Below are positions 16,801 through 38,199 of a stretch of DNA of 64,000 bases, piece by piece. This DNA is from Synechococcus sp. MU1643 (GTDB lineage: Bacteria; Cyanobacteriota; Cyanobacteriia; PCC-6307; Cyanobiaceae): contig NZ_VTKY01000004.1 of NCBI RefSeq assembly GCF_020514095.1, positions 1-64,000 of the forward strand, given 5' to 3'. Below the pieces are notes generated by a model that did not search any database, had not been told where the DNA came from, and saw nothing but the letters and a program-made list of their open reading frames with translations. The position numbers and the translations under genes are program-made. Positions within the stretch are counted from its first letter, which is position 1. Each line of letters starts with the position of its first letter.

Positions 16801-16924
16801 AGCAGTCAGGCAAACAGGCCGGAACCCTATGGGCGGTTTTTATTCGCTAAGGAAATAAAAGCCAGCACTCTCATTGTCCCGCTCTGAGACCCAACTCGAG
16901 AAAGGCCCAGAGTTCGTTCTCGGC

Positions 16925-17290
16925 TCACTGCAATGCTTCAGCCTGCTTGGTTGGATCCAGGGCACAGCTGTCATCCAGCAGGCGCTGAAGGCGCGGGCTG
17001 ATAGCAACCACCAGGGGATTCACCAGCATCCGCCGACCGATGCCCAACTCCTCGAGCGAGATCGCCAGGGCTTGCCTGGCCTGGCGGCGCGAAAGACGCC
17101 ACTTCTCCACCTGGCAGTCGCTGCTGGCCTTGGCCATGGCGGCATAGCCGCGAATTCGGCGGACCAGCACCACCACCGCAACCCGCCGCTGAACCTCAAG
17201 TACCAAGGAAGCCTATTCAGCAACAACAGCGATGGGTGCTGCCATGGGCAGACCCAGCAGCAGAGCAGCAAAGGAGCGATGGAGGCGCAT
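16925..17290 (-). pseudogene. Small secreted-protein gene interrupted by an in-frame TAG
   Basis: From ATG at 17290 the frame encodes a clear signal peptide (MRLHRSFAALLLGLPMAAPI followed by AVVAE), then TAG at 17213-17215. It then continues open in the same frame to TGA at 16925-16927, adding a basic, helical 94-codon segment (containing LSRRQARQALAISLEELGIG and PRLQRLLDDSC). The TAG falls exactly at the expected signal-peptidase boundary. The best reading is a nonsense-mutated gene for a periplasmic protein. Readthrough, a sequencing error or a separate downstream gene starting at TTG 17206 cannot be excluded. I do not recognise the mature domain. It lies 21 nt downstream of mtnD. Confidence 0.6.
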
Positions 17291-17311
17291 CAAGATCTCC
17301 TGGAGGCCCAC

Positions 17312-17940: not shown

Positions 17941-18651
17941 GTGGGAGTCGGCCCCGGTGATCCTTCTCTGCTTACCCTGGCCGCCGTTGAAGCCATCCGC
18001 AAAGCGGAGGTGGTCGCTTACCCGGTGGTCCGTCCGGGGAGCGACAGCATGGCCGCCAAAATCGCCGCCGCCTGGATCCGCAGCGACCATCATCGCCTGC
18101 CGTTGTTGTTCCCGATGGTGGAAGCCGCCGAACCGCGTCGCTCCGCCTGGGGGGCAGCAGCACAGGAGCTGCAGCAGGCTGTCCGTTCCGGCCAACAGGT
18201 GGCGCTGCTCTGCGAAGGAGATGCGTCTCTGTTTGCGAGCTGCAGCTATGCGCTGCTGGCCCTTCGTCGGGCATGGCCCAACTGTCCCATCAGCGTGATT
18301 CCTGGCATCACCTCCTGCTCGGCAGCCGCGGCTGCCGGCCTCTGGCCCCTCGCTCTTCAGCAGGACCAACTGCTGCTGCGCCCCTGCCCCGACACCCCCG
18401 AGGAGCTGGAGCAGGTGCTGGACACCGCCGCGGCGACGGGGCAAGTTCTTGCCCTGCTGAAGCTGGGCCGGCGCTGGAGTTGGGTGCAACCCCTGCTGAA
18501 GCAGCGTGGTCTGCTGCAGCAAGCGCTGTTTGCCGAACGGGTCGGCTGGCCAAACCAGCAGATCTGCTGCGCGGATGCCCTCGCGGCCGAACCCCGCCCC
18601 TACTTCTCGCTGCTGCTGATCCGTCAGGGATGGCCGGAGGTGTTGCCCTAG
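17941..18651 (+). CDS. cobI: Precorrin-2 C20-methyltransferase
   Basis: A SAM-dependent tetrapyrrole methylase that makes precorrin-3 in cobalamin synthesis. The N-terminal VGVGPGDPSLLTLAAVEAI is the family's SAM-binding signature; CEGDASLFASCSY and VIPGITSCSAAAAA follow. From GTG at 17941 the protein is 236 residues, but that start leaves almost nothing before the first glycine loop. The frame stays open upstream (reading TIIDPTTTGGLTL) without an ATG, GTG or TTG, so the true start may be a rare codon such as CTG near 17899. Its TAG shares the palindrome CTAG with the convergent proC stop. Confidence 0.88.
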   Translation: MGVGPGDPSLLTLAAVEAIRKAEVVAYPVVRPGSDSMAAKIAAAWIRSDHHRLPLLFPMVEAAEPRRSAWGAAAQELQQAVRSGQQVALLCEGDASLFASCSYALLALRRAWPNCPISVIPGITSCSAAAAAGLWPLALQQDQLLLRPCPDTPEELEQVLDTAAATGQVLALLKLGRRWSWVQPLLKQRGLLQQALFAERVGWPNQQICCADALAAEPRPYFSLLLIRQGWPEVLP

Positions 18652-19460
18652 GCCAGCTCTCGGCTGCGTTCTGCAGCAGCGACAACCGCTTCGATCAAGG
18701 CGGAGCGCAGACCAATGCGTTCCAGCGCGCGGACGCCGGCAATCGTGGTGCCCCCTGGCGAGGTGACCATGTCCTTGAGCTGGGCAGGGTGCAAATCGCG
18801 ACGGTCCAGCAGCTCAGCCGTTCCAGCCAGGGTGCGATGGCTCAGCCGCAAGGCCAGGTCTCTGGGAAGACCGGCTGCAACAGCACCATCAGCCATGGCT
18901 TCCGCCACCAGGGCCACAAAGGCAGGGCCCGATGAGGTGAGGGCCAGGAAGGCATCGAGCTTGACTTCCGCCAGCTCCAGCACCTCGCCCACATCGGCGA
19001 ACAGCTGCCGCACCTGGTCACGTTGCCCTTCGTCGATCCCTTCCCCCCAGGCCAGAGCTGTCAAACCTGCTCCCACCAGCGCAGGGGTGTTGGGCACCGC
19101 CCGCACACAGCGATGACCGGGAAACAAATGCTGCAAACGCGCCAGAGACACCCCCGCCAACACGGAGATCAGCAGCGGTTGACCCACAACATGTGCCGCA
19201 GCTGCTGCAACAGCATCCAGTTGCTGCGGCTTCACCGCAAGCAGCTGAACCGGGGCCGTCCAGACCTGCTGAGCGAAAGGATCATCAGCGGCAACCAAAC
19301 CGATGCCCGCCGGCAAGGCCCTACTCCGTTGCTCGAGCGAGCCAGATCCTCCAACGACTGCCAACAGCCGATCGGCAGGAATGCGTCCACGCTCCAAAAG
19401 AGGCACCACAAGAGCCTGAGCCATACGACCCAGGCCGATCACACCGAAAGCGGGCTGCAC
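18648..19460 (-). CDS. proC: Pyrroline-5-carboxylate reductase (proline biosynthesis)
   Basis: The enzyme reduces pyrroline-5-carboxylate to proline with NAD(P)H. The 270-residue protein has a Rossmann start FGVIGLGRMAQALVVPLL, LAVKPQQLDAV, VRAVPNTPALVGAGLTAL and, near the C-terminus, LKDMVTSPGGTTIAGVRALE, which is the PROSITE-type P5CR signature. The start is GTG at 19460, 8 nt after the sepF stop on the same strand. The stop TAG overlaps the convergent cobI stop. Confidence 0.96.
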   Translation of the reverse strand: MQPAFGVIGLGRMAQALVVPLLERGRIPADRLLAVVGGSGSLEQRSRALPAGIGLVAADDPFAQQVWTAPVQLLAVKPQQLDAVAAAAAHVVGQPLLISVLAGVSLARLQHLFPGHRCVRAVPNTPALVGAGLTALAWGEGIDEGQRDQVRQLFADVGEVLELAEVKLDAFLALTSSGPAFVALVAEAMADGAVAAGLPRDLALRLSHRTLAGTAELLDRRDLHPAQLKDMVTSPGGTTIAGVRALERIGLRSALIEAVVAAAERSRELA

Positions 19461-21970: not shown

Positions 21971-23338
21971 TCAGCTTTTGCGACTCTGCTGACGGGCCAG
22001 GTCGCGCTCGGCATCACGCTGCTGCTTGCCCCGCCAGAACAGGCGCAGCGGGCTGCCATCGAAGCCGAGACCCTCGCGGATCTGGCGCTCGACATAGCGC
22101 CGATAGGTCTCTCCGAACAATTTGGGATCGTTGACAAACAGAGTGAAGCTGGGGGGCCGGCTGGCCACCTGGGTGCCGTAGTACAGCTTTCCCTGGCGGC
22201 CACCACGGGTGGTGGGGGGACTGCGCCAACTCAGCGCTTCCTTCAGCACCTCATTCACGACAGATGTCGTAACGCGGCGGCGGTGCTGCTCAACGGCCAA
22301 GGCGGCCAAAGCAAAGATGCTCTCCACACGCTGGCCCGTGAGCGCCGAGGTGAACAGCATCGGGGCCCAATCAAGGAAATAGAGCTTGGAGCGCAGCTCC
22401 TTTTCCATCGCCGTCATGGTGTGGCTGTCTTTTTCCACCGCGTCCCATTTGTTGACGACCACCACGCAGGCACGGCCGTCCTCTTCAATGCGGCCCGCCA
22501 GGCGCTGATCCTGCTCGGTCACCCCATCGAGGGCATCGATTACTAGGACACAGACATCACTGCGTTCAATGGCCTTGAAACTGCGGTTGATGCCGAAGAA
22601 TTCCGGGCCATAGTTGACGCTGCGACGCCTGCGGATACCCGCCGTGTCCACCAGGCGCCAAGGACGATTCTCACGAATAATGCTGGTGTCAATCGTGTCG
22701 CGAGTGGTGCCTCGGATCGGGCTGACAATTGCCCGCTGCTCACCGCAGATGGCATTCAGAAGACTGGATTTCCCGACATTCGGCCGTCCGATGATGGACA
22801 TCTGAATCGGCTCCTCCTCGTCACCTTCCTGATCCTTCGGAGGCAAAAAGGTAAGCACCTGATCTAGCAATTCTCCGGTGCCGGCTCCGTGGATGGCCGA
22901 GATCGGATGGGGTTCACCCAGGCCAAGACCCCAGAATTCACCAGCCATCGCCAGGCCCTGTTCCGGCGACTCACACTTGTTCACCGCCAGAAGCTTGGGA
23001 CAGCGGTGACTGCGCAGAAATTCAGCGATGGATTCGTCAGCGGCCGTGAGCCCCTGCTGACCATCCACGATCACCAGAGCCACACTGGCTTCCTCGAGCG
23101 CAAGAGCCGCCTGCTCCCGGATCTCCGGCAGAAACTCACTGTCGTCGTCGAACACCAGCCCACCGGTGTCAACGACCTTGAATTCGCGATCGCCCCAATA
23201 ACCATCCTGGTAAGTGCGATCACGCGTCACACCAGGCTGATCGTGAACGATGGCTTCGCGGCTGCGGCACAACCGGTTCACCAAGGTCGACTTACCGACA
23301 TTGGGGCGTCCGATGATTGCGACGACGGGACGCGCCAA
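21971..23338 (-). CDS. der: Ribosome assembly GTPase Der (EngA)
   Basis: Der has two tandem GTPase domains and a KH-like C-terminus and assists 50S subunit assembly. The 455-residue protein has a first P-loop [16 protein letters not shown] with DTGG and NKCE, and a second P-loop [16 protein letters not shown] with [11 protein letters not shown] and NKWD. The C-terminal KH-like domain runs from about 355. The start is TTG at 23338. It heads a minus-strand run der-ecfT-pipX-pipY-sepF-proC with tight spacing. Confidence 0.97.
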
Positions 23339-23468
23339 GGGTCTGCTCAGGCCAATCTTTCACCCTACAGAGACGTCATAAACCCACTGCAGATCCGAAA
23401 TTCTTTCGGAGGGAGACAAATGAGTCTCAACTGAGACGACTAGGGCGGGTTCAGTGTGATCCCTCGCC

Positions 23469-23852
23469 ATGCTCGAGCTCGTTGCCAGTCTTGTGGTCGG
23501 CCTTTACGACCAACGCCTGACCGTTTACAACAGCGACCAGGAAGTGGTCCGAGTGATTCCAGTCAGCACCGGCAAGGCCTCAACGCCAACACCAATCTTC
23601 TACAGCAAGGTCTATACGAAGTACCGCTCCAAAACGATGTTTGGACGCACCTACACCGTTCCAGGGGTGCCGTTCACGATGTGCGTCAGTGAGAATGAGG
23701 CCATCTGCCTGCACGCCGCCCCCTGGCAGGAGAACGCGTAGCAACCCTTCGGCGTGCCACGCAGCCATGGCTGTGTACTCATGCCGATGAACCACGCCCG
23801 TTGGTTGTTCCACAACACCCCGAAAGGCACACCCATCACGATTCAGGCCTGA
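23469..23852 (+). pseudogene. L,D-transpeptidase (YkuD) gene interrupted by an in-frame TAG
   Basis: The frame from ATG 23469 runs 90 codons to TAG at 23739-23741. It then stays open in the same frame for 36 codons to TGA at 23850-23852. The first part holds the YkuD start (LYDQRLTVYNSDQEVV...VSTGK) and VPGVPFTMCV. The second part holds the catalytic PRSHGCVLM. The TAG therefore removes the active site. The residue after the catalytic Cys-Val, normally Arg (HGCVR), is Leu here, a second sign of decay. It is best read as a nonsense-disabled L,D-transpeptidase, with readthrough or sequencing error as alternatives. It ends 1 nt before the convergent DUF1823 gene. Confidence 0.75.
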
Positions 23853-23853
23853 G

Positions 23854-24300
23854 TCAGCCCACCGGCAGATCACCGGGGTGCCCCTGCACCGGATCGGCAG
23901 GAGGCGGAAGCTCCGGGCCCAAGGGCCCCTGCTCCGGCAGGGGTTCTCCTAGTTGTGCCAGCCAGGCCAGCAACCAGTTCACCGCCGTGGCTCGCCGGGT
24001 GCGGCGGGGATACAACTCACCGATCCGGTACCCCGCGAAGTTGAGCTGTTGCTTGAGCAGCTGCTTGTGTTCTTTGGGAACCGAGCGGGTCAGACGAACC
24101 GACGCCGGACGCTCGGCGATCAACTCGGGAGCCTGGGGGAAGGCCTCCGCCCAATCCGGTGGTGTGTCGGGGCCGCTGCACCACTGCGGTTCGGCAGGCC
24201 TATAGCCCAAACGTTCCCAAACCCTTTCGCAGACAAAGCGATCGCTGCAGCGGTCTTCGAGGATCTGAATCAGCAACGAACGACTCAGCGGCCAGGGCAT
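23854..24300 (-). CDS. DUF1823 family protein
   Basis: A 148-residue soluble protein restricted to cyanobacteria and plastid lineages, of unknown function. The recognisable core is ASVRLTRSVPKEHKQLLKQQ followed by LNFAGYRIGELYPRRTRRAT and AVNWLL. The tail is rich in Pro and Gly. I place the start at ATG 24300 (MPWPLSRSLL), because homologues begin near that motif; an ATG seven codons upstream (24321) is possible. It diverges from the dus gene with a 27-nt gap. Confidence 0.8.
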   Translation of the reverse strand: MPWPLSRSLLIQILEDRCSDRFVCERVWERLGYRPAEPQWCSGPDTPPDWAEAFPQAPELIAERPASVRLTRSVPKEHKQLLKQQLNFAGYRIGELYPRRTRRATAVNWLLAWLAQLGEPLPEQGPLGPELPPPADPVQGHPGDLPVG

Positions 24301-24327
24301 GTCGATTGCGTTGTGCAGCATGGACCC

Positions 24328-33783: not shown

Positions 33784-34126
33784 GGCGACCGACTCCTCCA
33801 GACGGCGGCAAGAGCCGAGGTAAACACCTTGAAAGTGATCGGGGCAGCATCGAGAAATACGGAGGTGCGCCACCCATCAAGGCTGACCGCCTTGCTGTGC
33901 CTGCTTCGACGTGGTGCTGGCCGACAAGCTGGATGCGTTCGTTCTGGTGTGGCGCCGCTCCACCGGAAACCGCTTCAAGGGCCCCCACCATCGACCAGGA
34001 GACCGGCAAATTCAGACAGGATCCTAGAGCGGGTGTCGCCAAACGCCACCTTTACGGGAATGCGCCTGGCGCCGATACAGCAGGCCATCCACCTCAGGCC
34101 GAGGTCTCAGCTAGCTAGCCAATAAG
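33784..34126. other. Gap without a convincing gene
   Basis: About 340 nt with several short open frames on both strands, none with a good start, Shine-Dalgarno or protein-like composition. One frame around 33900-34028 (reading CFDVVLADKLDAFVLVWRR...) looks vaguely protein-like but lacks a start and ends at TAG, so it could be a gene remnant. Confidence 0.4.
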
Positions 34127-34237
34127 TCAAACGATCTCTTTACGGCCAGCCTTGATCTTCTCTTTGGCCGTCATGAGGCCGTAGACGAGCAAGCCGAGAA
34201 GAGCGATGTTCACGCCGATGAAGAACATCATGTCCAT
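34127..34237 (-). CDS. Single-pass membrane microprotein (36 aa)
   Basis: From ATG 34237 to TGA 34127-34129 the frame encodes 36 residues. A hydrophobic segment (MMFFIGVNIALLGLLVYGLM) is followed by a basic tail (TAKEKIKAGRKEIV). This is the layout of small thylakoid or plasma membrane subunits of cyanobacteria, but I do not recognise it as a named photosystem or cytochrome subunit. Two further in-frame ATG codons lie within the first four positions. No operon partner is evident. Confidence 0.6.
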   Translation of the reverse strand: MDMMFFIGVNIALLGLLVYGLMTAKEKIKAGRKEIV

Positions 34238-34284
34238 GGTCTTGTGGCGACTTCGCCCGTGATAGGCGGGAAACGCAAGCCGGC

Positions 34285-34650
34285 CTACCCGTCAGAAGAC
34301 TCATTAATTCTGAGGGGAGGGCAACGGTTGCCGCAATTGGAAAGCAGTGCACCGCATGGGTAGCGGCGAAACGGTGGCGACACGAAGGAGCAGTGGGATG
34401 CGCTCAAGACACGATCCAGCCAGCGAGTCAGCTTCTTAAAAGACGGGCCTTTCCGAGTGGTCTTGGCCTTGGGAACGCACATTGCGTGTACAGCTGAGCC
34501 AGCCGCGTACTTCGCAGCAACTTCAGATAGTTCGATTGTCTTGCCGCACACTCGGCATGGGAGCTTTTTGACCAAGTGGGGATGCCTAACCCTCTTGTTA
34601 GAGGTAGCCCTACAACGATCGAAAAAGCCAGTTGTCGATACCGGCGTCAC
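34285..34650 (-). CDS. Putative small zinc-binding protein
   Basis: The frame from GTG 34650 gives up to 121 residues. The middle (about 28-75) looks genuine: KKLPCRVCGKTIELSEVAAK has a CxxC pair, and SAVHAMCVPK places a His and Cys 26-30 residues later, a pattern fitting a small zinc-binding knuckle. The last 40 residues are low quality (Cys/Pro-rich), so the true protein may be shorter or the 3' end degraded. Start and function are uncertain. Confidence 0.45.
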   Translation of the reverse strand: MTPVSTTGFFDRCRATSNKRVRHPHLVKKLPCRVCGKTIELSEVAAKYAAGSAVHAMCVPKAKTTRKGPSFKKLTRWLDRVLSASHCSFVSPPFRRYPCGALLSNCGNRCPPLRINESSDG

Positions 34651-34677
34651 GAATTGAGTGAATACTGACTTTGTGAC

Positions 34678-34810
34678 TCACTTCGTCGCCAGGTTTTCAA
34701 CCTTGGCCTCAGCCTTTTGACGGCTGCGCCAGCTTGTTGAGATTCAGGGCTTCGAGAGCCACGCCGAAGCTGCAAAAGAAGGCGATCAGGTCTTGGCTGG
34801 TGATGGACAC
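34678..34810 (-). pseudogene. Frameshifted mini-gene (about 43 aa if repaired)
   Basis: From GTG 34810 the frame reads SITSQDLIAFFCSFGVALEA then LNLNKLAQ and, after four more residues, stops at TGA 34709-34711. Removing one C near 34720 (CAGCCGTCAAAAG to CAGCGTCAAAAG) joins it to a second frame reading QKAEAKVENLATK and ending at TGA 34678-34680. Both halves look like protein, with an amphipathic N-terminal helix and a charged C-terminal helix. This suggests a single-base insertion in a small gene. It could also be a sequencing error. Confidence 0.5.
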
Positions 34811-34863
34811 AAAGACCCAAGGATCTCGTTACGGGATGTAACGAATGCTCGTAGCATGGCGGC

Positions 34864-35040
34864 ATGAGTCTTCTTAAAAGAGCTCCAGCAAACCTCGCCT
34901 ATTTGGGCGGCGGCATGATCGTCGCGGTCAGGGCATTGGAAGTTTTTGTTGGCGGCGCCAATGCTGGTGACTACCCTCTCAGCAAATCAACTAAAGCACC
35001 CTCCATACAGGCTCATCAAAAAACTGAAGTCAAGTCCTGA
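34864..35040 (+). CDS. Hypothetical small protein (58 aa)
   Basis: ATG 34864 to TGA 35040, 58 residues. A short basic start (MSLLKRAPANLAYLGGG) leads into a mildly hydrophobic segment (MIVAVRALEVFVGGANAG) and a polar Lys/Ser tail. No family is recognised. The next ORF starts 2 nt after its stop, so the pair is probably one transcription unit ending at the hairpin at 35251-35284. Confidence 0.45.
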   Translation: MSLLKRAPANLAYLGGGMIVAVRALEVFVGGANAGDYPLSKSTKAPSIQAHQKTEVKS

Positions 35041-35042
35041 CG

Positions 35043-35240
35043 ATGTCTATTGATGCCCGATGCCAAGAACAGCAAGCAGCTGCTGATCGCATGTTCATGG
35101 ACTTCAAATACACCCGCCCTGGCTCGAAAGAGCAGCTACAGGCCTTAGCCACTCTGAGCTTTCTCATAGGGATGTGGGCCGATTTCCTCACTGCCGAGGA
35201 GAAGAGAATGGATCAAGTATTAGCCCTAGAAGGCCGCTGA
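35043..35240 (+). CDS. Hypothetical small protein (65 aa)
   Basis: ATG 35043 to TGA 35240, 65 residues, soluble and helical (CQEQQAAADRMFMDFKYTRP, then LQALATLSFLIGMWADFL and a charged end). No family is recognised. It lies 2 nt after the previous ORF and 10 nt before a strong hairpin, which supports it being a real 3'-terminal gene of a small operon. Confidence 0.55.
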   Translation: MSIDARCQEQQAAADRMFMDFKYTRPGSKEQLQALATLSFLIGMWADFLTAEEKRMDQVLALEGR

Positions 35241-35250
35241 TCAGTCGCGA

Positions 35251-35284
35251 GCCAAGCCCCTGCTAATGCAGGGGCTTGGCTTAT
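35251..35284. terminator. Bidirectional terminator-like hairpin with a perfect 13-bp stem
   Basis: GCCAAGCCCCTGC and GCAGGGGCTTGGC pair perfectly around the loop TAAT. It sits between two converging small ORFs, 10 nt after the plus-strand stop and about 8 nt past the minus-strand stop. T-runs are poor on both sides (TTAT on plus), so its strength must come from the stem. Confidence 0.7.
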
Positions 35285-35288
35285 CAGC

Positions 35289-35453
35289 TCAGGCAACAGA
35301 GATGCTGTGAGGTGCAGCGGGATAGCTCGTTGGCATGGGATCTACCTCTCCTTCTGCCATCGCTTTGGCGCGCCGGTACATCTGGCTACTAGTAGCCCCT
35401 TGAGCTCCCATGGCGGCTGCAACAACTGCCCAGTTCTTAGTTTCGGAGGTCAT
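35289..35453 (-). CDS. Hypothetical small protein (54 aa)
   Basis: ATG 35453 to TGA 35289-35291, 54 residues: TSETKNWAVVAAAMGAQGAT then SSQMYRRAKAMAEGEVDPMP and a Pro/Ser tail. The first half could form a short helix-turn-helix-like unit (MGAQGATSSQMYRRAKAM), but that is a guess. Upstream in-frame codons to 35537 look non-coding. It shares the hairpin terminator with the convergent pair. Confidence 0.45.
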   Translation of the reverse strand: MTSETKNWAVVAAAMGAQGATSSQMYRRAKAMAEGEVDPMPTSYPAAPHSISVA

Positions 35454-35632
35454 TGACTTCAGAAAATTCGACCCATGAACCATCGCCAAATAGCTCCTTA
35501 TGCCGTGACGGAGGCATCCGCACAGCAGACCTCTCACAGAAAGAGAAAGCAGTGGCTATGGCGCACCTGTATCAGGCCCTACGTCAAGCAATTTCGAGCA
35601 TCTGTAATAATTCAAAAAGTTGCCTCTGCTGA

Positions 35633-35821
35633 ATGCACGAGGAAATAGTTGCGAGCCTTCACCTTGATTTGCGCTCTCTCAAGCTTGAGTACAAGACAAC
35701 CTGCGATGCGTTGAGAAATTGGCCTGGCGGACCTGCAGAGGAGCAAGAATTTCTCGAGTACAAAAAACAAGAGCTTTTTCGAGCCTTAGTCGAGCACACC
35801 TTCCATGACGAACCTGTCTGA
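35633..35821 (+). CDS. Hypothetical small protein (62 aa)
   Basis: ATG 35633 to TGA 35821, 62 residues, acidic and helical: EEIVASLHLDLRSLKLEYKT then CDALRNWPGGPAEEQEFLEY and a KKQELFRALVEHTF end. The composition is protein-like and the surrounding DNA is visibly AT-richer than the flanks. No family is recognised. Confidence 0.5.
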   Translation: MHEEIVASLHLDLRSLKLEYKTTCDALRNWPGGPAEEQEFLEYKKQELFRALVEHTFHDEPV

Positions 35822-36072
35822 TTGTTTGACAACTCCTGAAGTGTCATAGGCACTGGGCATTCAACTGGCAGAAGGACGTGGGGTGGGCACCAAAAGCGTG
35901 TTATGCCAGCAGGTTTCACCTGGTGATCATGTCTATAGAAGCAAAAGGTTTTTATGGATCGCCGCCGTACTTCTGGAGATTTCATCAAGGCATATCAGGC
36001 AGTTAATTGACACCCAGCAGTAATCAGGTTGCCATCACCGCAGGTTGCACCCAAAACCACTTACGCCTCAGA
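35822..36072. other. AT-richer spacer at the end of the small-ORF region
   Basis: About 250 nt with no convincing gene. Two overlapping tiny frames (from ATG 35928 and ATG 35954, 24 and 18 codons) are too short to support. It separates the small ORFs from the SBF transporter gene. Confidence 0.4.
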
Positions 36073-37005
36073 TCACCTTCTAATGATGCAAGGCTGGCGC
36101 CTCCAAAAGGCCGCAAGGGCGCTGCCGATCAGGCAGTGAATCACTGCAGAGATGGCACCCGGCAACGCCGTCAGGGGACTGGCGAAACCACCACTGCGAG
36201 CGAGCACCACGGCCAGTCCTGAGTTCTGCATGCCCACCTCGATGCTGATGGTCCGCTGGGCCTGCACGCTCTGCCCCGCCAGCCGGGGAATCAGCCAGCC
36301 GAGCAGAAAGCCGCCGCCGTGCAGTAGCAGGCAAGCCAGGATCAGCACGCCCCCCTGCTGACGCAGCACAGCCGTCTGGCTGCCCACGATGCTGGAGACG
36401 ATCATCACGATGGCTATCACCGCAAGGGGAGGCATCACCGGCTCAATCCGCTGGGCCACACCGGGCAGACCACGCTTGAGCACCACCCCAACGGTGACGG
36501 GTAACAACACCACCTGAAGCACTGCCAGGAACAGGGCCCAACCGTCCACCGGAACGTACTGGCTGGCCAATACCTGCGTGAGACGCGGGGTCAACACCAC
36601 CGCCGCCAGGGTGCTGATCGTGGTCATGACCACCGACAGCGCCACATCGCCACGGCCGATCAGAGCCACCACATTGCTGGCGGTCCCCCCTGGGCAGCAG
36701 CCGACAAGAATCAAGCCCACCGCAAGCGGGGCAGACAGGTGCAAAGCCGCCGCAATCACAGCAGCAAGAGCCGGCATCACCAGGAACTGCACCAGCACCC
36801 CCAGCAGCATGGCGCGGGGGCGTTGAGCAACCCGCATGAAATCAGCGGGTGTCAGCCCAACCCCCATACCGAGCATGATGACGCCGAGTCCAAGGGCGAT
36901 CAGTGGCCCCTTAAACCAGATGAATAGCGGGGGATGCAGCAAGGCCAGCAAAGCTCCCAGCAACGTCCAAAGCGGAAAGAGCAGAGTGAAACGCTCCCAG
37001 GTCAT
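36073..37005 (-). CDS. Bile acid:sodium symporter (SBF) family transporter
   Basis: A 310-residue membrane protein with about 9-10 helices. The family hallmarks are PADFMRVAQRPRAMLLGVLVQF, LVGCCPGGTASNVVALIGRGDVALSV (the GGTASN loop) and SIEVGMQNSGLAVVLA (the E-x-G-x-Q-N motif), which form the sodium and substrate sites. In bacteria such proteins take up organic anions or pantoate-like acids; the real substrate is unknown. The start ATG is at 37005; open frame further upstream belongs to the bioF region. It diverges from bioF across 54 nt, which must hold both promoters. Confidence 0.92.
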   Translation of the reverse strand: MTWERFTLLFPLWTLLGALLALLHPPLFIWFKGPLIALGLGVIMLGMGVGLTPADFMRVAQRPRAMLLGVLVQFLVMPALAAVIAAALHLSAPLAVGLILVGCCPGGTASNVVALIGRGDVALSVVMTTISTLAAVVLTPRLTQVLASQYVPVDGWALFLAVLQVVLLPVTVGVVLKRGLPGVAQRIEPVMPPLAVIAIVMIVSSIVGSQTAVLRQQGGVLILACLLLHGGGFLLGWLIPRLAGQSVQAQRTISIEVGMQNSGLAVVLARSGGFASPLTALPGAISAVIHCLIGSALAAFWRRQPCIIRR

Positions 37006-37059
37006 GACGATCAGAGGATTGCGACCATCCTTGTTCAGGGCGGATTCCAGACTGTTGTG

Positions 37060-38199
37060 ATGCGGGACCACGCTTCTCCCATCCCTCCAGCCCGCCGCCG
37101 CCGCCTGCGGAGCTTGAACTCCGGCCAGGAGCCCTGGCAGCTGCAGGATCCCGCCGGAGCCGGCCAGCTCGTTGATCTGGCGAGCAACGACTACCTCGGG
37201 CTCTGCCGTCACCCCGATGTGCTCGCAGCGGCAACGGAGGCCGTGGCCTCCGATGGCGTCGGTGCCGGTGGATCTCGCCTGATCACCGGAACCCGACCAC
37301 GCCATCTGGAACTGGAGGCAGATCTTGCCACCTGGTTGAACCGAGACCGGGTGCTGCTGTTCCCCAGCGGATTTCAAGCCAACATCGCCGCCCTAACGGC
37401 CCTGAGTGACAGGCACACCACCGTGTTGGTGGACCGGCTGATCCACCACTCGCTGCTGGCCGGAGTCCGCACCAGTGGAGCGCGGCTGCAACGCTTTGCC
37501 CACAACGATCTTAAGGATCTCGGCCAGCGGCTGCAGCGGCTCAACCCGGCAACAACACCGCCACTGGTGGTGACCGAAAGCCTCTTCAGCATGGAAGGCA
37601 CCAGCCCCGATCTGCAGCGCATCGCCGACCTGTGCGCCCACCACGGTGCACAACTGCTGGTGGACGAAGCCCACGGCCTGGGAGTGCTGGGGCCAGGAGG
37701 CCGCGGGCTTTGCCATGGACTCCAACAGCCTGTGGCCTTGGTGTGCGGCACCTTCGGTAAGGCCTTCGGCAGCGGAGGTGCATTTCTGGCTGGGGATCAC
37801 AGCACGATGGAACGGCTGCTTCAAACCAGTGGGGCTTTCCGCTACACCACGGCCCTGGCACCATCGCTGGTGGCTGGAGCCCAGGCTGCCCTGCGCTTGA
37901 TCCAAACCAACCCCAATTGGGGAAGCAAGCTGAGCCAGCGCTCGGAACGCTGGAGAACAGCTCTGGCGCACCAGGGCTGGGCAAAACCAGCAGGGCACGG
38001 TCCTGTGCTGCCCTTGCTGGTCGGTGGCGACCAGGACGCGCTCGACCTCCAGCAACAGCTGGAGCAGGCGGGTCTGCTGTCGGTGGCGATCCGGCCGCCC
38101 ACCGTCCCGGAGGGAACCGCCCGTTTGCGCCTGGTGCTGCGGCGGGACCTGCCGGAGGGCACATTGGAGCAACTGCTCGCAGCCCTCGGCTCTCGATGA
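37060..38199 (+). CDS. bioF: 8-amino-7-oxononanoate synthase (biotin)
   Basis: Condenses pimeloyl-ACP or pimeloyl-CoA with alanine to form 7-keto-8-aminopelargonate. The 379-residue PLP enzyme has LASNDYLGLCRHPDV, GAGGSRLITGTRPRHLELE, VDEAHGLGVLGPGGRG and CGTFGKAFGSGGAF with PLP Lys234. The start ATG is at 37060. Its TGA overlaps the next start as ATGA. It opens the operon bioF-bioK/H-bioC-bioD. Confidence 0.96.
   Translation: MRDHASPIPPARRRRLRSLNSGQEPWQLQDPAGAGQLVDLASNDYLGLCRHPDVLAAATEAVASDGVGAGGSRLITGTRPRHLELEADLATWLNRDRVLLFPSGFQANIAALTALSDRHTTVLVDRLIHHSLLAGVRTSGARLQRFAHNDLKDLGQRLQRLNPATTPPLVVTESLFSMEGTSPDLQRIADLCAHHGAQLLVDEAHGLGVLGPGGRGLCHGLQQPVALVCGTFGKAFGSGGAFLAGDHSTMERLLQTSGAFRYTTALAPSLVAGAQAALRLIQTNPNWGSKLSQRSERWRTALAHQGWAKPAGHGPVLPLLVGGDQDALDLQQQLEQAGLLSVAIRPPTVPEGTARLRLVLRRDLPEGTLEQLLAALGSR

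Follow-up and report, generated by a model that had tools for sequence, protein, structure and literature searches.

The gene at positions 23469-23852 of the window, the 64,000-nucleotide stretch of Synechococcus sp. MU1643 DNA analysed here, is very probably a young pseudogene, descended from the gene for a small L,D-transpeptidase with a YkuD domain, in a marine Synechococcus-type cyanobacterium. An in-frame TAG interrupts the frame, homology to the family lies on both sides of it, selection on this branch has shifted, and the orthologues of four other genomes in the genus carry different lesions.

The interrupted L,D-transpeptidase frame

The frame lies on the plus strand and consists of 127 codons and a TGA, beginning with an ATG at 23469, and encodes a YkuD (L,D-transpeptidase) domain. 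With X placed at the internal stop, the Pfam YkuD profile (PF03734) matches the whole frame over profile positions 4-146 of 146 at E 3.8e-21. It also recognises separately the 90-residue part 5' of the TAG and the 36-residue part 3' of it (Table 1). The catalytic-domain match, in the whole and in each half alone, thus supports descent from a YkuD L,D-transpeptidase. A sequence-only reading of this DNA had placed the TAG at 23739-23741, ahead of the active site of an L,D-transpeptidase, with the YkuD domain continuing in frame beyond it as far as HGCV; both statements agree with our results. The downstream part carries SHGCVLMP, in which HGC occupies codons 100-102 and the catalytic cysteine is codon 102, so that the stop at codon 91 precludes a continuous chain through the catalytic motif. 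As also proposed earlier, the conserved arginine that follows HGC and a hydrophobic residue is replaced by leucine: codon 104 encodes Arg in each of the 15 uninterrupted orthologues found in the genus, where it is preceded by HGCV (ten) or NGCV (five), and the same 15 have Gly at codon 91. The corresponding position is Asn in two aligned solved L,D-transpeptidase chains.

Among solved structures, the intact orthologue of the related genome G010 most resembles L,D-transpeptidases 4jmn (LdtA, E 4.5e-11) and 5e51 (E 4.6e-11), and it shares the SHGC motif of the family. The window frame departs from the family in its break before HGC, in the Leu that replaces Arg after HGCV, and in its minimal 127-residue form with no visible signal peptide. 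The start MLELVASLVVDLS, or a close variant, is common to the 15 uninterrupted orthologues, and the 127-residue reading of the window begins at the first YkuD strand; upstream of this common start the open frames of the orthologues vary, giving lengths of 129-208 residues. Direct reading of the sequences revealed no conserved signal peptide on the window frame, and the earlier description of it as secreted finds no support.

Table 1 Features of the window discussed in the text
Feature	Position	Strand	Basis
YkuD frame, first part, codons 1-90, including CLHAAPW	23469..23738	+	Pfam YkuD (PF03734) E 5.2e-9; orthologues
In-frame TAG, codon 91	23739..23741	+	Gly codon in 15/15 uninterrupted genus orthologues
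YkuD frame, second part, codons 92-127, with SHGC	23742..23849	+	Pfam YkuD (PF03734) E 6.1e-8
TGA, the original stop	23850..23852	+	Read from the frame
der GTPase gene, upstream neighbour, uninterrupted, selection control	21971..23338	-	ORF list, codon comparison
155-aa uncharacterised gene, convergent neighbour, uninterrupted, raised dN/dS on the window branch	23854..24321	-	ORF list, codon model
Second TAG-interrupted frame, decaying	16910..17293	-	TAG 17215-17213, TGA 16927-16925

The gene names der, dus, cobI, proC and rfb used for this region are those we presume from the sequence or take from the sequence-only reading. An opposite-strand gene at the locus was considered and set aside, as the one minus-strand frame that was translated contains three stops; a 97-aa ORF is listed there. 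The only Rfam match in positions 23300-24000, to a snoRNA, scores 24.3 bits where the cut-off is 100, and we regard it as chance.

Relative to both G010 and G046, the window reads GTA in place of AGG at positions 23738-23740. These three adjacent differences comprise the bases that create the TAG and a synonymous change immediately preceding it. Among the neighbouring genes, der contains no such run; the 155-aa gene contains two runs of two and dus three. The AGG to GTA replacement looks like one multi-base event; three adjacent changes are unusual for single-base mutation, and the species is represented by one isolate.

Lesions across the genus

We surveyed the gene in 34 genomes of the genus, including that of the window. 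Fifteen carry an uninterrupted copy over residues 1-127, five a broken copy (the window's genome G000, G001, G014, G039 and G046), and 14 gave no match. In the orthologue alignment every broken copy has its own set of lesions. Beyond the TAG at codon 91 and the Leu at codon 104 of the window, G001 has ATA at the start codon, a TAG upstream of the window's TAG position and a frame change; G014 has a TAA one codon past that position, a late frame change and HGF for HGC; G039 combines a TAA with a frame change; and in G046 a TAA accompanies a frame change and HGC has become HGY. The window gene thus bears a disabling lesion relative to intact orthologues that occupy the same genomic place.

In a tree of der, the window adjoins G046 and then the intact G010, and G001 and G039 each stand beside intact relatives. 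The gene's own tree differs, for there the partner of the window is G010, at support 0.68, instead of G046. Since the window and G046 have no lesion in common, we count the five breaks as separate; constraint could nonetheless have been lost once, in the common ancestor of these two genomes.

Five of the 14 genomes without a match are 98-100% complete (G006, G007, G008, G015 and G044). Absence means little in the other nine because these are 53-83% complete. In four of the five near-complete genomes der adjoins the 155-aa gene, and no remnant was found between them; in the remaining one, G008, no 155-aa gene turned up near der. When the G010 protein is the query, G044, counted here as lacking the gene, gives a single weak match (E 4.2e-4, position not listed), which we take to be a paralogue. 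The five fall into two groups on the der tree (G007 with G044; G008 with G006 and G015); if the gene is ancestral, this grouping suggests two deletions or more. Ancestry is likely, judging from its distribution: of the 271 family genomes that are at least 90% complete, 116 contain matches with an E-value of 0.001 or lower, many of the weak ones being paralogues, and in genus g46 all 22 genomes with a match have a stop-free one over residues 1-126 or 1-127.

Interrupted matches also occur outside the genus. In another genus of the family, G298 has a match with two TAG codons (C66:4074-4436) and G287 one in two pieces, one of them with a TAG (C34:14840-15225). The spacing at the locus varies as well, with about 2.1 kb separating der from the L,D-transpeptidase gene in G021 (L114) and about 130 bases in the window.

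Selection on the gene and its neighbours

We fitted codon models with a script of our own, keeping the FastTree topologies fixed and masking stops and broken codons. A single omega for the YkuD gene (20 sequences) is 0.071. Allowing the five broken branches a separate value gives 0.426 on them against 0.047 elsewhere (LRT 63.67, p 1.5e-15). The window branch on its own has an omega of 0.251, higher than the background (LRT 7.98, p 0.0047). Selection on the window lineage is therefore relaxed (0.251 against 0.047), as in a pseudogene, though its omega is still below 1 (LRT 5.29, p 0.021). A value below 1 implies that constraint acted along part of this branch, as it might if the gene broke only recently or if its product still has a function. 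Under the same division of branches der, analysed as a control (18 sequences, 455 codons), shows no shift (omega 0.0179 versus 0.0172, p 0.91). The 155-aa neighbour (20 sequences) has omegas of 0.083 and 0.143 under that division (p 0.036). Its omega for the window branch reaches 0.67 (p 0.008); relaxation there is thus not unique to the YkuD gene.

Window-specific codon changes were counted only at sites where G010 and G046 agree. The YkuD gene has seven nonsynonymous changes, the stop included, and six synonymous ones, whereas der, over three times as long, has one and 20. The 155-aa gene has six nonsynonymous and five synonymous changes, and dus eight and 22, the latter an alignment count made outside the codon model. 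Three of the six amino acid changes that accompany the stop, D11G, S13Y and R104L, alter residues fixed in all 15 intact orthologues; the other three, T55K, Y58F and A75E, fall at residues that vary among them.

Sequence error, split function and readthrough

That the TAG is a sequencing or assembly error is improbable, but the idea deserves consideration because the stop and the preceding synonymous change form a three-base run of a kind absent from der, because a second nearby frame likewise contains a TAG, and because the assembly (2.07 Mb in 13 contigs) may lack pieces, tRNA-Ile(GAT) and tRNA-Ala(TGC) being absent from the tRNAs typed. Against it, the estimated completeness is 99.99%, the same gene is broken in independent genomes, and the gene carries six amino acid changes besides the TAG where the much longer der has one. 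Poor sequence had been suggested as a cause shared by both interrupted frames, a suggestion that fits neither the 20:1 ratio of synonymous to nonsynonymous codon changes in der on the same branch nor a screen of the region. That screen took 55 G010 ORFs of at least 80 aa over a 64-kb stretch, which matches the window to about 56.5 kb; it is not exhaustive, as the second TAG frame (17293-16910) was not flagged. Forty-nine of the 55 match the window; the screen flagged 13 of them as short or interrupted, and 10 of the 13 were scanned with Pfam. Two of the ten gave Pfam matches, the YkuD gene and an aminotransferase whose domain lies inside an uninterrupted window ORF (36934-38199), leaving the YkuD domain as the only one interrupted. 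The remaining eight, without a Pfam match, are taken as antisense or overlapping ORFs. The three flagged ORFs outside the scan (G010 C3 270267-271640, 281635-282732 and 284521-285348) have coordinates that overlap window ORFs in another frame or strand. In the reverse comparison, five of 49 window ORFs with a match were flagged. Sequence error is accordingly unlikely. It is harder still to believe that the gene has been split, with the 90-residue piece alone, or both pieces together, remaining functional, for instance in non-catalytic peptidoglycan binding. The window branch omega of 0.25, below 1 (p 0.021), would fit such a role, but the catalytic cysteine motif lies past the stop, the conserved arginine is lost, and the catalytic cysteine has also been lost from two other broken copies (G014 and G046), as decay predicts.

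Amber-suppressed or recoded genes have an in-frame TAG with homology on either side, and the window gene resembles them in this respect. On such a reading a tRNA or the local sequence would permit passage through the UAG and a full-length enzyme would be made, a reading to which we give very little credence. The frame past the TAG is open as far as the original TGA and keeps its YkuD match, and a stable hairpin begins about 7 nt past the TAG (-32.4 kcal/mol for 100 nt, z -2.38, with three of 200 shuffles as good). The hairpin is, however, stronger in the intact G010 orthologue, which has no stop there (z -3.80), and against synonymous-codon controls three of the 15 intact orthologues reach 0.05 or less, compared with 0.057 for the window. 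None of the 39 tRNAs typed by ARAGORN, out of 40 Rfam tRNA matches in the window's own genome, has the anticodon CTA; the fortieth match is partial (29.1 bits) and is not called by ARAGORN. A pattern for CTA tRNAs has three matches (two forward, one reverse) against seven for the reversed control (three and four), and the three fall in tRNA-Glu, in tRNA-Arg(TCT) and in a partial copy of tRNA-Arg(TCT). A suppressor may sit in missing sequence, given that tRNA-Ile(GAT) and tRNA-Ala(TGC) are not among the 39. Release factor 1 is neither missing nor altered, its gene matching the prfA model at 479.8 bits (cut-off 423.25) with no inner stop. The relatives' copies are broken by TAA and frame changes, and the window copy has lost the Arg after HGCV. 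Among 13 YkuD matches with an inner stop in the genus, some past a frame change, the stops are TAG in five, TAA in four and TGA in four. Unlike amber-suppressed genes, then, the window gene has no suppressor among the typed tRNAs, has RF1 present, and belongs to a family whose stops are not biased to TAG. Together with the stronger G010 hairpin, these results make suppression very unlikely, and with it the earlier proposal that suppression is the common cause of the two interrupted frames; decay remains the preferred reading. As a separate observation, about 3.4 kb from the tRNA-Arg(TCT) gene at C3:238068-238141 of the window's genome lies a weak tRNA match (C3:241573-241620) that has a 28-base stretch in common with it, a pattern that an integrated element could produce.

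Gene content also differs between the window and the G010 stretch. Four window ORFs, from 33829 to 35988, have no match in that stretch, and six G010 ORFs (C3:262251-269239 and 272876-274708), one of them 1162 aa long, have none in the window.

A second interrupted frame and the YkuD paralogues

The sequence-only reading had noted a second secreted, TAG-interrupted frame within 7 kb. We take this to be the minus-strand frame from 17293 to about 16910. In addition to the TAG it contains a TGA, and its first residues, read directly, are signal-peptide-like. It is matched in 30 of the 34 genus genomes, and its orthologue is also interrupted in G039 (TGA) and G014 (TAG and TAA). The TGA beside the TAG, and the interrupted orthologues, indicate that this frame too is decaying. 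The most likely common cause of the two interruptions is thus gene decay in the lineage and not the reading of UAG. Of the earlier interpretation, decay stands, being borne out by the different lesions in four other genomes, the raised dN/dS and the change of Arg to Leu after HGCV; amber suppression and low-quality sequence as shared causes do not. The observation that the cobI (17941-18651) and proC (18648-19460, minus) ORFs end in TAG is correct, and the amber-suppressor tRNA that had been proposed as a check did not appear among the 39 typed, none having CTA.

The window gene is one of several YkuD genes in its genome. G010 has six YkuD matches, whose counterparts in the window's genome were compared one by one. 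Those at C1:649709 and C8:35773 (with the less usual TGGCIN) are uninterrupted. A third, at C1:96375-96716 (L139), keeps the YkuD core, and its 5' part, signal-peptide-like in the G010 counterpart, has been replaced by unrelated sequence. A fourth, at C3 about 144637-145018 (L160), has decayed where it stands: its DNA still aligns at 85% identity with the intact gene of G010, but a TGA, a frame change and a TAG interrupt it. We rejected the alternative that this YkuD sequence (C3:144639) is a 38-aa remnant of a deletion, as the alignment shows decay in place; the difference of 916 against 90 bases lies upstream of it. The fifth counterpart is the TAG copy of the window itself. The sixth G010 YkuD gene (C2:271022) has no counterpart among the matches in the window's genome.

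Among 19 near-complete genomes, the ten in which the gene studied here is intact have 2-6 other uninterrupted YkuD matches, the four with a broken copy have 1-3 and the five without it have 0-4. This count covers neither G014 (87% complete) nor other partial genomes, and it includes the 5'-truncated copy at C1:96375 in the window's genome among the uninterrupted ones. Intact and broken groups differ by an exact Mann-Whitney test that ignores phylogeny (p 0.014), which suggests attrition of the YkuD family in some lineages. Inner stops or frame changes are also seen in other YkuD paralogues of the genus, namely G009 C1:2560486, G042 C1:894676, G003 C1:1579103, G001 C1:1181121, G039 C1:1055812, G046 C20:220044, G013 C9:49643 and G017 C61:1583.

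Discussion

The history best supported by these comparisons is as follows. Relatives keep the gene under strong purifying selection, and on the lineage leading to the window this constraint was relaxed. A three-base change turned the Gly codon at position 91 into TAG, the Arg after HGCV gave way to Leu, and two more residues fixed in the 15 intact orthologues were altered. Translation ends at the TAG, and because the stop precedes HGC the 90-residue product should not be a working transpeptidase. Judged from the sequence, the enzyme activity has probably been lost; a permissive cause, such as redundancy with the YkuD paralogues that remain in the same genome, may have made this tolerable. In an annotation of this region the TAG is best entered as a disabling lesion; it should not be taken to indicate recoding.

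Gene loss in free-living marine cyanobacteria has a precedent in Prochlorococcus, where the text of Sun and Blanchard (2014; PMC3940434) describes early loss. The loss described here differs from that case in being recent, repeated and within a Synechococcus-type genus; the words 'peptidoglycan' and 'cell wall' do not occur in the main text of that paper. In what we could find of open-licence papers there is no report on the decay of L,D-transpeptidase or YkuD genes in marine picocyanobacteria, and the repeated loss of L,D-transpeptidase paralogues within the genus is perhaps new.

A single pseudogene is ordinary. Repeated loss of a gene, and perhaps of a family, within one genus is worth following, and here an otherwise strongly constrained gene has been broken in five different ways and was probably deleted at least twice. 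The affected genomes offer natural knock-outs for testing the role of L,D-transpeptidases in marine cyanobacteria. As a more speculative extension, which we consider doubtful, L,D-transpeptidases might be discarded repeatedly in the genus because in the sea their loss brings an advantage, or at least no cost. Were this true, the window's genome would have been caught in the middle of that loss, with one copy carrying a TAG, a second decayed, a third truncated at its 5' end and a fourth not found, and the genus would provide a natural series in which to study the purpose of 3-3 cross-links.
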